From contig JAWNZC010000176.1 of the NCBI GenBank assembly GCA_035771165.1, forward strand, positions 575,501 to 639,500: a stretch of DNA of 64,000 nucleotides, read 5' to 3'. Shown here piece after piece: positions 32,358 through 40,135 of this stretch. The DNA comes from Paragorgia papillata (taxonomy: Eukaryota; Cnidaria; Anthozoa; Scleralcyonacea; Coralliidae). The stretch's first letter is position 1. Every line of letters starts with the position of its first letter. Made by a program: the position numbers and the translations under genes. The notes under the pieces were generated by a model. That model worked only from the letters and a program-made list of their open reading frames with translations. It was not told where the DNA came from and searched no databases.

Positions 32358-33436
32358 ATGGAAATGGCCGAAAAAACATCTGACCACGTGCTCGATGAAG
32401 ACACGCAAGACGGCCATCTTGAGACGACCAACAACAACAATGCAGCTGAAATCTCGGACGAATGCATTGAAGTAAACGACCCTGAAACTTCAGCCGTGAA
32501 CAACAATCAATCTTGTTCTGGATGTGAACAACATACGAAATTAATCTCCGAACTATGGATGAAAACTACAGCACTTGAGAATAAATTTCAATGCTGTAAT
32601 TCAAACAAACGTGACGACAATGACTGTCCTTCGTGTGAGAAATTGAGATCTAAGGTCGAATATCTCGAGGCGGAACGTGAAAATTTGTTAGCAGCGATTC
32701 AACTGCTGACTCAAGATAAGAAAGCAATCTCAAACAGTCCAACTAGTGGCTCGGTCGATACCAAAACAAACGATTCAAGTAGCAAGTCAAATGGCGATGG
32801 ACCGTGGTCCGTGGATAAAGGTCAGCAAAAAGAGCAAAGGAAAGCAACAGGATGCTTCTATCAACAATGTCAACAAACAAAGGCAAAGAAACAACTCAGG
32901 TGAGCGTGTAAATAACAGTAAACCGTCTCACAATGGAACAGCCAACCAATCTCGGGTCACAATCATAGGTGATTCAATGACCAAACACATAAATGGAAGA
33001 AAGCTTTCCAAATCACATAAGGTGATATCAAAGTCATTCCCTGGGGCAGTTATAGAAGATCTTGAACATTACATCAAACCAACACTCAAACATAAACCAG
33101 ATAAGATCATTCATGCTGGGACAAAACAATCTTAGGAATGATAGCCCAAAACAAATAAACAGCAAGTTGGTCAAGGTCATTTGTGGCATCAAAACACAAC
33201 AGCCAAGTGTGGATATAGCCATATCCTCTGTCATCAAAAGGAATGACAACCCAGCCTTGAATGCAAAGATCTCGGAGGTAAATGCTTTACTTAAGACCTA
33301 CTGTGAACAAAAAAATTTAGATTATATAAGTAATGACAATATCCGGGAACAATGCTTGAATACAGGTTGGCTACACCTAAATCCGAAAGGTATCCAAGCC
33401 CTCGCTAGTAATTTTAGAAATTACATCACTTATTGA
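32358..33436 (+). pseudogene. LINE ORF1 with SGNH/GDSL-esterase-like domain, two frame breaks
   Basis: From the ATG at 32358 the protein is Asn/Asp/Glu-rich, then has cysteine pairs (CSGC and CPSC) flanking a coiled-coil-like stretch (KLRSKVEYLEAERENLLAAI), a basic region, and a domain starting RVTIIGDSMTKHINGRKLS. That domain continues SFPGAVIEDLEHYIKP, PDKIIHAGT and GWLHLNPKGIQ. The GDS block and the terminal His match the SGNH-esterase type of ORF1 found in CR1/L2-like LINEs. The frame breaks at AAA 32816-32818 and AAAA about 33122-33125, each repaired by one base fewer. The last part ends at TGA 33434-33436. Confidence 0.82.
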
Positions 33437-33836
33437 TGTAATGTTGTCAATGCAGATAATTTAACCAATCATAATTCAACATCATGTCCAGTTTTACATG
33501 ATGAAACTGACCTTTCCAGAGTTAGAGGATTTAAAATTGGATCACTAAACATCAATAGTCTTTCAAAACACATTGATGAGTTACAAGTATATATAAAAGA
33601 TGGTATTTTTGATGTTCTAGCAAGTAATGAGACTAAATTAGACCAATTTGATCCTGACTCTCTAAATAACCTCCCAGGTTATACCTGCATCCGTAAGGAT
33701 CGCAATAAGGCCGGAGGTGGGATTTGTATATTTATTCGAAATTCTATCAATTTTACAAGAAAACCTAATCTTCAAGACAAAAGTCTCGAAATGATCACAA
33801 TTGAAATAAAAAAGCCACATTCTGATCCGTTTTTAA
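33437..33836 (+). pseudogene. LINE ORF2 N-terminus: AP-endonuclease, cut by a transposon
   Basis: In the same frame as the end of ORF1, directly after its TGA, the sequence encodes RGFKIGSLNINSLSKHIDEL, then DVLASNETKLD (the catalytic ET pair), LPGYTCIRKDRNKAGGGICIF and LEMITIEIKKPHSDPFL. This is the N-terminal half of the LINE AP-endonuclease. No ATG occurs before the endonuclease block. The domain stops at 33836, where the DNA transposon begins. A short continuation (PKSPVELFNKFEEILIKLS) resumes at 39789. Confidence 0.85.
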
Positions 33837-33955
33837 AGTGCTTATGTCACAAAAAAATTTTTTTGACTTTTGAGTAGAGGACAAAAAGTTAGTTAATAGG
33901 TTATTTAACATTTTTCGGTTTTCTCTTTTCATTCGCGAGATATGCGGCTCTAAAC
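33837..33955 (+). repeat. Left terminal inverted repeat
   Basis: It pairs with 39667-39785 with only a few mismatches, reading from AGTGCTTATGTCAC through GAGTAGAGGACAAAAAG to GATATGCGGCTCTAAAC. An A/T block (AAAAAAATTTTTTT) sits about 15 bp from the tip in both copies. Confidence 0.95.
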
Positions 33956-34009
33956 AACGATTTTCGTGAAAATGTCGCGTATCAACAAGAGTCTGGGACG
34001 AGCGTGGTG

Positions 34010-34019
34010 TGACGTAGCT
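34010..34019 (+). promoter_or_regulatory. CRE-like box TGACGTAGCT upstream of the ballast gene
   Basis: TGACGTAGCT lies 50 bp before the ATG at 34069. The same box lies in inverted orientation at the other end of the element before the THAP gene. Conservation in both ends, where neighbouring bases have diverged, suggests a promoter element of the bZIP (CREB/ATF) type. This is inferred from motif and position only. Confidence 0.45.
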
Positions 34020-34068
34020 CAAGGAACTTAATTACGACGCGCATTATACATTTGGTATATTTTCCAGC

Positions 34069-34995
34069 ATGTCAGGCAGTAGCTCGGATTCGGAAAGCAC
34101 TCATGGCTCTCAATGTGACTCAGAGTACAATTATATTCCTGGGTATATTATAGAGGAAGAATCAAATGATACCAGTCATGAAATTGGAACTCTAGAAGCA
34201 GTTGATAGCGAAATTTTAGGCGATTATGATGCATGCCTTTATACCGATGAACCGCTTGCGGGCGAAGAATGGTACGCGCGATATCCAAAAAAATCTGCGG
34301 AACACAAGGAACAAAACGAGATGCTACAGCAAAGATTGGACGGCCTTGCAGATATTAAATCATGGTGAGCATAAACATAGATTTATTTTAACGTAAAATA
34401 AGTATCTCTGGCTGATATATTTTTGATACGGCATCAGTCACATCAAAGAGTTCAAACCACACTTCCCTCACCTGTATCTTATTTCACAGGTGTAAATGCG
34501 GCCATTGTGTGATAACACATATACAAAATACACACGAAGCTTGGTGCTGTCAGGAGATGGAATCTTGTAGGGAAGCTCTGAAGGATATCTTGGTTTTAGA
34601 AGATGTGCCACAGCCGCCGTGCTGTATCACTCTACACCCAGGATTCAGACCTATTTGTTTGAAAAAATGGGCTCTAAGAAACCTCGCGAGAAAATACAAG
34701 ACACGCGATCAAAGAAGATATAAACAGACTGGTTCAGAGCAAACGTATGTATTCTTGTTTCAAGCTACAGTGTTTGTTTATTTGTAATCACGTTTATTTA
34801 ATACGAACGATTGAACAAGCTCGTTTATTTCTTAGGTTTTTACGCAGTGTTGCCTACAGAGAGTTTATCTTCATGGTACATGGATACTTGGGTGATGAAA
34901 GGAGAGCCTTACCAGCATGTGCATATAATGCAATCAGATCAACATTCAATGATGAAAAGGAACAATTTAAAGGTTTTGACGATGAGACTGCTTAA
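34069..34995 (+). CDS. P2X7-ballast-domain protein, three exons, transposon cargo
   Basis: Exons 34069-34364, 34490-34744 and 34836-34995 join in phase with GT-AG introns (GTGAGC...TTTCACAG and GTATGT...TTTCTTAG), giving 236 residues. Residues 1-98 are acidic and Ser-rich. Intron 1 splits the Trp codon of WCKCGHC (99-105), followed by WCCQEMESC, CCITLHPGFRPICLKKWAL and, across intron 2, RSVAYREFIFMVHGYLGD...RALPACAYNAIRSTF. This order of cysteines, the HPxF motif and the YRxF block is the signature of the P2X7 receptor C-terminal ballast domain, which binds zinc in vertebrate P2X7. No channel or membrane segment is present. The gene lies wholly inside the transposon, tail-to-tail with the transposase. 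Its role in transposition or in the host is unknown. Confidence 0.88.
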
Positions 34996-35431
34996 CATTT
35001 CAAAAACTTACAACTTATGCCTATGGTCAGCCCTAGTATATTATGCACTTGTCATCAAAATCCCAGCCCCTCACCCGGGGAAATATGGGGCATTAGACTT
35101 TTGTATATACTAATGCCAGAAAATGCTCTAGTTATAGGGGCAATCATTGCAAGCAAATGCCTCCATCATTCCCCAGTCTCACCTATGCCCCATGTTTCTC
35201 TGGGGTGAGTGGGGCGAGGGTTTCCAATGACAAGTACAAGACCTGCTAATGTAAGACAGCTTTCCTTGTCATGAACAACCAAAGGGCATTACAATTATTT
35301 TGCACAGAGACAGTAACAGATAAAGTATTGTGAAATGTTCATATTAGGATTTTATCAACTTTACCAGACAGAAATATTATAATTATATACATACAGTAGA
35401 TTTAAAATATTACTTCATATTTTTTGGACAG

Positions 35432-38400
35432 TCAAGAATGTTTTTTGTGTCCTTTCATCGGGTTCTTGCAAACGGAACATTTGGGTTTTGACCTTGTTTG
35501 AGTCACTTCTGGAGTTGGTGGTTGAAGCTCTGTCACTGAAACAAGATGGTATTATTAACTAGTGATATTCATGAACAAGATTTATTTGTCATGCAAACAT
35601 GGATACAAACTTTCTTTGACCTATATTGAATACCATAATAATTTACCTGGTATTGAAGGAGGGACATCTTTAAGCTGCATCTGTCTTCTGTCCTCCCTTT
35701 TCTTCAATGCCTCAGACTTGGGTTGTTTTTCCAACATAGTGTTCATTGGTGGTGGGGTCATGGTTTTCAACTCTTCTCGAGCCTTCTTCAAAGTCTTTGC
35801 TTTGATGCTGCCACAAATTGTTGCAAATATTTCATCCACATAATCTAAAATAAGAATCACAGTACTGTATATATGTAGGATAATTGGACAATGGATTTGT
35901 TATGCAACATGCATTTCAACAGCAAAAATTTGGTTTTACATGCTGAATCTTACCAAAAATTGGCTTCACCCTAACATCTCTGACAGTACCCGGCCATTTT
36001 TGAATTTGGGATACACCACATTCACTTGTGCAGTTCCATCTTTCTTGGTTTTCGGCATTCTTTGAAGGTTGCGATTGAAGTGGATTATGGCCAGGATGTG
36101 TCTAGTAAATTATAAAAACACATGTATTATACATATAAATATACATTACAAACATACATATAAATATACAGGCAGTAGTAAGGCCTGTGGGAGAGTCAGA
36201 TACTGTACAGTGCTAATGCAGTAGTAATCTTCCCAGGTATTACTACCGAACCATTAGTGAAGTTACATTATACCTGCAATACATTCCAGGGAATGAGTAG
36301 TGGATCATCTTTGGGGAAAAGTGATTCAGCACAGAGTGAAAACCCTCCAGACAGCTGGTTTGTGATATCGGGGAAGCCTGCTTGATTGCGTTCACAAGCC
36401 GCACCTTTGTAAGCTGATAGCATACTTTTTCATGAGCAACAGAGCCTGGAAGATAACAATACCGTACTTGTGTTTTTGTGTGAATTGGGGGGGGGGGGCT
36501 TACATGGGGGTTAGAGAGAGAGAGAGGGTATTGCTTCATTGGAGATATTATGGTACTTAGGTGGCTAGTCCAATTGGGCATACCTTCAAATAGATATATA
36601 CATACCTTCAAATAGATACTCACGGGGAGAAATATCTGGCCCATGAGCACATTTTGAAAACAGTGGGTCATCTAAACTGTTATGCTTGTTCACTATGTGG
36701 CTAAGGAAAGATTTGAACTTTGCCCAAATAACTGTTCCATTGCCATCATGAGTGGAACAAGCACTCCAATAAAAATGATTGCCACAAGGCTTTATCCACT
36801 CTGTCACTCCTTCGCACCCACCTTCCTTTGACACTTTGATCATTACTTTTGTTATCTCTGAAAAAGAGTGTATATTTAGATATTGAGTTCATTTAGTCTG
36901 ACCCCATCATATTTGTACACCCTCTATTCATTATCTCGGTACACCACTTACTCTTTTTCAGATGCCACAAATCAAAGTAATGTTTCACATTAGCCAACTT
37001 TGTCTTCATGTGTTTGCTAATGGAACCATGTCTGTCAGAAATGAATGTTGACATCACAAGTTGACATCCCGACAAGAATCCCATACAGTTTTTGGAATGC
37101 CAAATATTCCATTGCTGGGCTGCTACCTGCTTCATTTCGCTATAAGTAGAATAAGGTGTGTTCAATATCGGGCAATAGAAGATCACTACAGAACCAACAC
37201 ATAGTCTTACTCACATATATACATGAAATGGATTCATGCAACCAATCCTATAATTAACTGGCTGGAAAGTATTGAGATATATTACAGTACTTTTCATTTA
37301 CCTGTACTAGGGAAAAGTGAATAATGATGGACGTGGTGCAGTTGAATATTGTATATCCACAATATTTTGCACAATGTCCCATACTGTCATGCCGACCGTC
37401 TCCTGCCAAAACCAAAGCGCCAGCTTCTTTAGCCTGGTTCACAATTTTCTTTTGGTATTCCTTCCAATGTAAATGGATTGAAGGCAATAGGATTTTCTAT
37501 AATAATGAATGAAGAGACAATTCATTGAGTTGGAAATGTTTTTTTATTTTGTCATCCTTGTGCTCAATCAAGTATATTATGTCTTTGCATATTATACCTG
37601 CTTTAATAATATATATTTTCAAATATATTCACCTACTGTATCAAGAAATGTATTTGTGCATTACAGTGTTTTTAATGGTACTTACTCGTTGATGTCTAAA
37701 ATATGTAGACAATGAAATGCAAGCAAGTCCCATGTGCTTCATAACTTGCAAAACTTTGCTTGCTGATGATCCAGCTACCAAGATAGCAAAGGATAACAGG
37801 AAATTTGCTGCATAAATTTTTGTCCCTGGCATTAGTTTCTGGCTTTTCCAGACAAAGTCTTTCCTACACTCTGGGTTTTGGCAGCTGGTAGTTATTGCTA
37901 TCATTGTTCCGACTTGTGACGCTTTCAGCAAAGGCTCACTTTCATGGCAAAAGATGCAGGTCTTGAACAGCAACAGTAACTGTGTGAGGAACACAATAAA
38001 TTTCGGCTGTTTGCGGATATTGTCTGTAATATCCTCTCTAGATAAAAGAAAAACTCTATGTGGGGGGCATGTTGAAATCTATCCAAGGGTAACAGGGAGG
38101 GCATGAAAAAAGTTATAATTTATTAGGGTGGGTCAAGAAATATTTTCCTAGTAAATTATGTATAATTAATGAATGGTCCCTAAGGAATCATTAGAATTGC
38201 AATGCAACAGATAAATTCTGATTAAATCACAGACAAATCTACACAAAATATACCATACCTTTTCACTGAATGCAATATTTCATCTATTTCATCTTCTCCG
38301 ATATCATCATCACTGTCATCAGACAAATCCACGCTGCCATCTTCTTCCAGCATATAGTCATCATCTGTGTCTGTATCATTGTCAGATAAATGCATGACTT

Positions 38401-39517
38401 CGTCATGTGGTTCTTGGCAAGGTTCTGGGCAGTTATCGTTGGTATCGTCTAAACAGATGTGGAGGGCATGTGAGTTTGCCAGCATGTTATTTTGCCATTT
38501 TATCCAACCACCATTCCATCGATAACATGAGGTTATTTAGGTCCTAGGAGGATAAAGTTGGGCTCAAGAAAATTATCGTTTGACATTATTAAATACCTTG
38601 ATCAGTCTCTTGCGCAAATCTTTCTTTTGCCAATTTAAACTTTGCCGTCTTCAAACTGCTCCTCAGCCTTTTGTTTTTTGTGGACAAAACTTTACATCGT
38701 ACACATCCCTCTGTCTGCGTTTCACTGTCAACAAACTTCTGAAAGTATAATGTAATTTGTAAATCATATTGCATATCTTAGGACTTGGATTCTTGGTTAG
38801 CAAGTACTAGCATGATTTATAGTTTACACTTTATAAAACAAAGCCTTACCTGGCCGAACGAAAGGGATCTTATATTTTTAGGATCATTGACTTCCAACAT
38901 GGTCGTTTCAATATCAATAGCATCGATCAGATGACAATGACATCTCATCTGTGTCGTCTTTCGACTCATCATCCTCGAGTTTCGACGAAGATGCTTCAGC
39001 CAGAATCATAATGACTTTCTTTCTCGCCTAACCAATAAAAGAGACGTTAACTTAGACAAACTAGTTTATATTTATACCGACATTTACCGACACAATACAC
39101 GCGATCAAAATTATCAAATGACAAATATAAACAAATATATATAAAACTGATAAACATACCTACCTGACGCTTGTCACGAGGGGAGACTCCGTTTGCAAGA
39201 TTGCTTCCTGCGAATTTGCTCGGATAGACAACTATACCGGTTTCGTCCTTCTTTAATCGAGGCATATAGTCCCTTGTTCCAGGTATCTCAACAAGGTACT
39301 TCTCGTAATCCTCCGGAGTAAAATGTTCGGAACATACAGCGGAGAATTTTGATGGCGTCCATTTCTCACGCTTTGTCGCGACAAAGATCACCCATATCTT
39401 CCTCCTTCGCTTTGCTTCAGGGCGCTCATCGTTCCAGAATGGAATCCGATGAAGAGAGATCCCTTTCTCTGCGTTTGCTAGGTTTGAGCAACCAAAAACG
39501 ACACATCTATCAGGCAT
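35432..39517 (-). CDS. THAP-domain transposase, 12 exons, three single-base breaks
   Basis: Exons on minus: 39164-39517, 38850-39027, 38597-38738, 38259-38448, 37686-38037, 37302-37496, 36952-37139, 36606-36857, 36274-36445, 35954-36101, 35647-35844 and 35432-35535; about 823 residues. Exon 1 is a THAP finger (MPDRCVVFGCSN, KW, CSEHF, DYMPRL). Next come an acidic linker, a coiled segment and a CxxC...C finger. The core has AGDGRHDSMGHCAKY (D438/D442), FISDRHGS (D505), YFDLWHLKK and CLEGFHSVLNHF (E650), a candidate DDE set. The C-terminus has a zinc knuckle, CSVCKNPMKGHKKHS. All splice phases agree except that exon 2 (near 38927) and exon 7 (GGG run) have one base too many and exon 10 (CGGG) one too few. 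It acts on the element's own ends; Kolobok-like is my best guess. Confidence 0.85.
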
Positions 39518-39581
39518 TTTGCTGTCTTCTCAATAGCTTTTTAGTTCTCCTTCACATGTGAATTCTAACTTCCCTCCCTTA

Positions 39582-39591
39582 AGCTACGTCA
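39582..39591 (-). promoter_or_regulatory. CRE-like box TGACGTAGCT upstream of the THAP gene
   Basis: Mirror copy of the box at 34010-34019, 65 bp before the ATG at 39517, inside the weakly conserved inner part of the right end. Confidence 0.45.
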
Positions 39592-39666
39592 CACGGCTGT
39601 CGCCCCAGACCCTTTTCCGGTTTTTTCTCGGGCGCGACAATTTTCGCTAAAAGCCAATTTTTCAAG

Positions 39667-39785
39667 GTTTAGAGCCGCATATCTCGCGAATGAAAAGAGA
39701 AAACCGAAAAATGTTAAAGAACCTATTAACTAACTTTTTGTCCTCTACTCAAAAGTCAAAAAAAATTTTTTGTGACATAAGCACT
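39667..39785 (-). repeat. Right terminal inverted repeat
   Basis: Complement of 33837-33955, ending GTGACATAAGCACT. LINE sequence (CCAAAATCTCCTGTTGAGC) resumes three bases further on. Confidence 0.95.
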
Positions 39786-39788
39786 TAC

Positions 39789-39843: not shown

Positions 39844-39854
39844 CCTTACAAATA

Positions 39855-40135
39855 TTCCACATGATTTCACATGTGGATATTCCACATGTGATCACACGTT
39901 CCAAAAACACATGTGGAATATCCACATGTGGAATATCCACATGTGGAATATTCACATGTGGAATATTCACATGTGATCACATGTGGAATATTCACATGTG
40001 ATCACACGTTCCAAAAACACATGTGGAATATCCACATGTGATCACATGTGAAGATTTCACATGTGATCACACGTTCCAAAAACAATCGTTCCAAAAACAC
40101 GTTCCAAATGGAATATCCACATGTGATCACATGCG
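39855..40135. repeat. CACATGTG palindrome block, copy 1
   Basis: Dense CACATGTG and TCACATGTGATCACATGTG palindromes, joined by GGAATATTC/GGAATATCC and ACGTTCCAAAAAC spacers. TCACATGTGA is the E-box/M-box type recognised by bHLH-zip factors such as MITF/TFE, so the block is either a hairpin satellite or a site cluster. Confidence 0.9.

Follow-up and report, generated by a model that had tools for sequence, protein, structure and literature searches.

Background

P2X7 is an immune receptor and a drug target. According to the sections of Kojima & Bao 2022 available to us (PMC9587614), the KolX protein that Kol0-lineage Kolobok transposons encode resembles positions 476-595 of P2X7 and has the fold of the P2X7 ballast domain, and P2X7 arose when a P2X4-like gene fused with KolX. 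The same sections define Kolobok elements by termini that read 5'-RR and YY-3', and an extract on Xenopus Kolobok elements describes THAP domains as usual in their transposases, together with TTAA target sites and AG ends (PMC6004289). The excerpted text of Rump et al. 2020 (PMC7016195) counts fewer than 10 ballast genes in each species and no large families, and describes an ancestral linkage of these genes to two markers in invertebrates and the combination of P2X and ballast solely in vertebrates.

Here we analyze an element at positions 33837..39785 of a 64,000-nucleotide stretch of the Paragorgia papillata genome (the window; contig JAWNZC010000176.1). The element is very probably a Kolobok DNA transposon that is young and carries two genes; one of them, KolX, is homologous to the P2X7 ballast, and by its KolX the element would belong to the Kol0 type. 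It shares with the Kol0/KolX lineage (Kolobok-1_XT; PMC9587614) the TTAA site, the RR...YY ends, a DDE transposase with a C/DxxH motif and a KolX with the ballast fold, and differs from the published Kol0 families in that it sits in another genome. Since the link between KolX and P2X7 was already made in 2022, our finding is a sound rediscovery from raw sequence, and the element is a well-preserved further example of that link. Neither the extent of the ballast load of a single genome nor the presence of two ballast types within Kolobok was met in the portions of the literature covered by our search.

The KolX gene and its product

The KolX gene lies on the plus strand and comprises three exons, which encode an acidic, serine-rich N-terminus and a helix (34069..34364), the ballast cysteines in WCKCGHC, CC and CIT (34490..34744), and the AYR motif, the PAC cysteine, the AIR motif and the stop (34836..34995). 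A preliminary description of this DNA had claimed that the plus-strand gene encodes the zinc-binding cysteine signature of the P2X7 ballast without any channel, and had named a profile search as the check. Both claims hold: the spliced product of 236 amino acids matches the Pfam family P2RX7_C (PF20478) with an E-value of 1.4e-10 and 41.8 bits (cut-off 23.5), and it has a residue of the two-zinc site at all seven ballast cysteine positions. P2RX7_C is the sole Pfam match in the protein, in which Pfam detects neither a P2X channel domain nor a known DNA-binding domain.

The window KolX thus resembles the P2X7 ballast in being a homologous domain with the seven zinc cysteines, and modeling predicts the same three-dimensional fold for both. 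Two of the five residues of the P2X7 GDP site are also kept (R546 and R578). It differs from the P2X7 ballast in being transposon-borne, in having no channel attached and in the absence of H547, R574 and K583. A search of the Protein Data Bank with the single KolX sequence gave no match up to an E-value of 10. In a separate search of the same database, a spike glycoprotein E2 chain matched weakly (E 0.88), which was judged to be due to chance. The relatives of KolX in the databases are mostly cnidarian, and a KolX profile also retrieved zebrafish nanor b (P0079, E 1.1e-11). The ZCD/nanor-like proteins are, like KolX, short stand-alone ballast proteins; however, they have been described as products of host genes numbering fewer than 10 per species (PMC7016195), whereas the genes described here belong to transposons and are many. 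It should be noted that in Acropora muricata a ballast match lies within a 378-amino-acid protein named CUB domain-containing-like (P0049), which may be either a gene-model fusion or a domestication.

The transposase gene

The second gene lies on the minus strand and converges on KolX, and its 12 exons were set by splice signals, reading frame and homology. Exon 1 (39164..39517) encodes a THAP domain (PF05485; E 1.9e-11, 45 bits, cut-off 23.9). It is followed by exon 2 (38850..39027), which is frameshifted in the window and in four sister copies, exon 3 (38597..38738), exon 4 with an acidic stretch (38259..38448), exon 5 (37686..38037), exon 6 with the region of the first catalytic D (GDGRHDS; 37302..37496), exon 7 with the second D (SDRHG) and the DLWH motif (36952..37139), exon 8 with a putative zinc finger region (36606..36857), exon 9 with the catalytic E (LEGFHS; 36274..36445), exon 10 (35954..36101), exon 11 (35647..35844) and exon 12, whose end is approximate (35431..35535). 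Exons 7 and 10 are frameshifted in the window copy as well, so that its transposase has to be described as broken and not as intact. The motifs GDGRHDS, SDRH, DLWH and LEGFHS occur in this order, with key residues that are invariant or almost so in an alignment of 30 homologues; the catalytic residues were assigned by motif. Among 62 relatives of the transposase core, the best is 60% identical across the whole core, and those with names are mostly cnidarian, with a snail and a tick ranking lower. The proposal of two spliced, convergent genes between inverted repeats, one of them a THAP/DDE-type transposase, is therefore borne out by the THAP match and the DDE motifs. As expected of a Kolobok family with a DDE transposase, the enzyme would cut the element out and insert it at TTAA.

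Copies of the element in the genome

The element measures 5,949 bp, reads AG...CT in agreement with the 5'-RR / YY-3' definition of Kolobok, and has exactly the limits first proposed for it. Its terminal inverted repeats (TIRs; left, 33836..33955, plus strand; right, 39667..39786, minus strand) are near-identical as claimed, with arms that are 98% complementary, although they measure 120 nt and not the 119 bp given before. We searched the 618-Mb assembly with the TIR and scored the best 40 of 46 candidate matches, 27 of which had at least 89% identity and represented 13 pairs and one single TIR (L022). The paired-TIR copies span 4.0 to 6.7 kb and are 99.1-99.9% identical to each other over shared columns, which indicates that the family is young. 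Seven of these copies have TTAA at both ends and the other six at one end, as in L017, where the TIR on the non-TTAA side is shortened. Thirteen weaker matches (73-77%; on C324, C473, C471, C469 and others, several equal in score) are confined to the inner part of the TIR and perhaps belong to a related family that spread separately.

KolX sequence is present between the TIRs in 12 of the 13 copies, confirming the expectation that further copies with both genes would exist; it is absent from L010, and L019 lacks the last exon. Ten copies have a whole KolX frame; that of L018 is broken, that of L019 is cut, and L010 has none. The transposase frame is open over 829 codons in four copies and over 824 in one more, and the remaining eight copies, that of the window among them, have a broken frame. 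The idea that a host ballast gene merely lies beside a transposase by chance, which no observation favored, was rejected on these grounds, and is next to impossible given 12 paired-TIR copies on 10 contigs that hold KolX within the same ends.

A second Kolobok lineage

The ballast loci that score highest in the same genome belong to a second lineage, represented by L053 (C50:1969450-1979400) together with L058, which has a ballast frame of 169 amino acids that scores 129.4 bits against P2RX7_C. The L053 element is about 7.6 kb long, with AGGGGG ends and a TTAA at either side; in the parts that align, L056 and L057 are 98-99% identical to L053, and they too have its TTAA-AG left end. A three-row profile (L053, L054 and L055) of the frame convergent with the ballast gene matches transposases of the window type with an E-value of 8.1e-39. 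A piece of this transposase was found in 21 of 30 ballast loci searched with 1.5 kb on each side, three of the 30 having supplied the queries, and it was convergent every time. The second lineage is thus similar to that of the window in its TTAA sites, AG end and Kolobok-like transposase convergent with a ballast gene, and unlike it in its AGGGGG ends, its size, and its shorter ballast protein with a much higher P2RX7_C score (129.4 versus 41.8 bits). The second-lineage ballast gave no match at an E-value of 1e-5 in a phage collection.

Ballast genes across the genome

A genome scan with P2RX7_C, in which the best 150 of 328 candidates were scored, gave at least 150 matches, all above the cut-off, a number that includes three overlapping row pairs (two on C77, one on C311) and does not include the three-exon family of the window. 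The same profile had no match in 14 control genomes. A parallel scan used one cnidarian transposase query and scored the best 53 of 1,338 candidates, giving 71 rows, of which we used the first 53 (one per locus) and omitted 18 weaker ones. A listed ballast match lies within 8 kb of 21 of these 53 transposase loci, convergent in all 21, where about 0.004 per locus would be expected by chance. Five of the 53 are window-family copies, none of which entered the paired count, as the ballast list does not include their KolX; four of the five do contain KolX. Conversely, a scored transposase is near 21 of the 150 scored ballast matches, a low share because the short transposase list limits it. Relatives of KolX and of the transposase also have neighboring gene numbers, and contigs of equal length, in other cnidarians (Actinostola P0004/P0127; Dendronephthya P0041/P0098).

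The number of ballast genes in this genome thus differs from the numbers of Rump et al., and transposons explain at least part of it. The suggestion that transposons account for numerous ballast genes stands for that part, and the count alters the view that ballast genes make up a small family in the host. As a separate observation, four consecutive ballast matches each are found at C14:3072962-3090626 and C235:638042-647423; the spacing of about 3.01 kb in the latter suggests tandem multimers. A giant ballast fusion (an open frame of 1,885 amino acids on C106) was dismissed, as the frame extends into N within the retrieved sequence and gives no evidence of fusion.

The position of P2X7

To place P2X7 we built a tree of 46 ballast domains, comprising 18 of the second lineage (21 of the 30 loci passed the motif filter, and 18 remained after removal of identical rows), 23 database proteins, the window KolX, zebrafish nanor b and three mammalian P2X7 stretches. 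One branch sets the window type apart (100/95), and P2X7 groups with the second type (98/98) and falls inside it at 82/77; P2X7 is represented by three mammals only, and its branch is long. When nanor was omitted and only well-filled columns were used, the window type and the second type separated at 100/100. Trees with P2X7 outside an intact second type were not rejected (approximately unbiased (AU) test, p 0.273; 0.156 without nanor). Placing P2X7 with the window type was rejected at p 0.014 when nanor was also forced across, and had a p of 0.152 without nanor. By profile score, P2X7 matches the second type at an E-value of 1.3e-27 versus 0.13 for the window type, and H547 is present in 16 of 18 second-type rows versus none of 23 window-type database rows; the second-lineage set was drawn from the loci with the highest P2RX7_C scores, a choice that favors likeness to P2X7. 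The profile score and H547 argue that P2X7 is nearer to the second type than to the window type.

On this sequence evidence, P2X7 is closer to the second Kolobok lineage than to that of the window, and placements inside or beside the second lineage both fit the trees. Accordingly, a transposon as the donor of the P2X7 ballast, as put forward in the preliminary description, is plausible and had already been proposed in print (PMC9587614), but the window lineage is not the closest to P2X7. Following the published proposal, such a ballast gene would have been joined to a P2X4-like receptor gene to form the P2X7 tail, for which the second lineage would be the better donor match. That the P2X7 ballast derives from this second lineage (L053/L056/L057; H547, 129 bits) and not from the KolX lineage of the window is a possibility that we put forward tentatively. 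If true, the P2X7 tail is a domesticated transposon accessory protein, and its living close relatives would allow its first function to be assayed.

The role of KolX

We tentatively propose that KolX is an accessory protein that aids transposition in trans, perhaps as a compact, zinc-stabilized partner that works with the transposase or with the element ends; this is weaker than the assignment of the element itself, and we consider it slightly less than an even prospect. KolX might perhaps be tuned by guanine nucleotides, as two residues of the P2X7 GDP site (R546 and R578) are retained. Three observations favor a part for KolX in the life of the element: the two genes are paired in two diverged lineages, they converge, and the second type is under selection. 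Between two families of the second lineage, the proportions of synonymous and nonsynonymous differences in the ballast gene are 0.70 (pS) and 0.09 (pN), with a ratio of nonsynonymous to synonymous substitution (dN/dS) of about 0.05; between near copies dN/dS is 0.8, and 12 of 15 pairs are saturated.

Alternatively, the domain could have moved from host to transposon, in which case KolX would be a ballast gene captured from the host and a passenger that plays no part in transposition. Two observations fit such a passenger: there is no constraint on KolX among the window-family copies, and invertebrate ballast genes are reported to have an ancestral linkage to two markers (PMC7016195). The former does not favor an accessory role, but would be expected if inserted copies decay and helpers act in trans. 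Capture is also difficult to reconcile with the convergent pairing in two diverged Kolobok lineages, with the selection on the ballast protein between second-lineage families, and with the restriction of the P2X and ballast combination to vertebrates (PMC7016195), and we regard it as improbable.

The main rival to a trans-acting partner is a regulator of transcription of the element or the host, by which KolX would act on the host or on silencing and not on the transposition reaction. Transposon accessory proteins can act in this way, and a regulatory role has been suggested for zebrafish nanor, but KolX has no known DNA-binding domain by Pfam; we consider this reading rather unlikely, if less so than capture. 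The young elements in which both genes are whole, together with the second lineage closer to P2X7, offer a practical way to ask which task the ballast fold performed before it was attached to a channel.

Flanks of the window copy

The left target site of the window copy is TTAA (33833..33836), and the right flank reads TACC, not TTAA. The odd right junction, the exon-2 frameshift and the left flank are common to L009, L013, L014, L016 and L020, and we read this five-copy group, the window copy included, as probably a single insertion that was later duplicated along with its surroundings. Consistent with this, the left flanks of the group, over 292-295 bases, are 99.3-99.7% identical to that of the window. 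The left flank (33056-33836) resembles a long interspersed nuclear element (LINE), with frames similar to a GDSL esterase (E 9.9e-5) and an endonuclease (E 4.1e-5), both under the Pfam cut-off. To the right of the element, 39852-40108 consists of tandem repeats based on CACATGTGGAATATT; on this side the flanks of the sister copies show an alignment identity of only 80-84%, and their repeat units are shifted.
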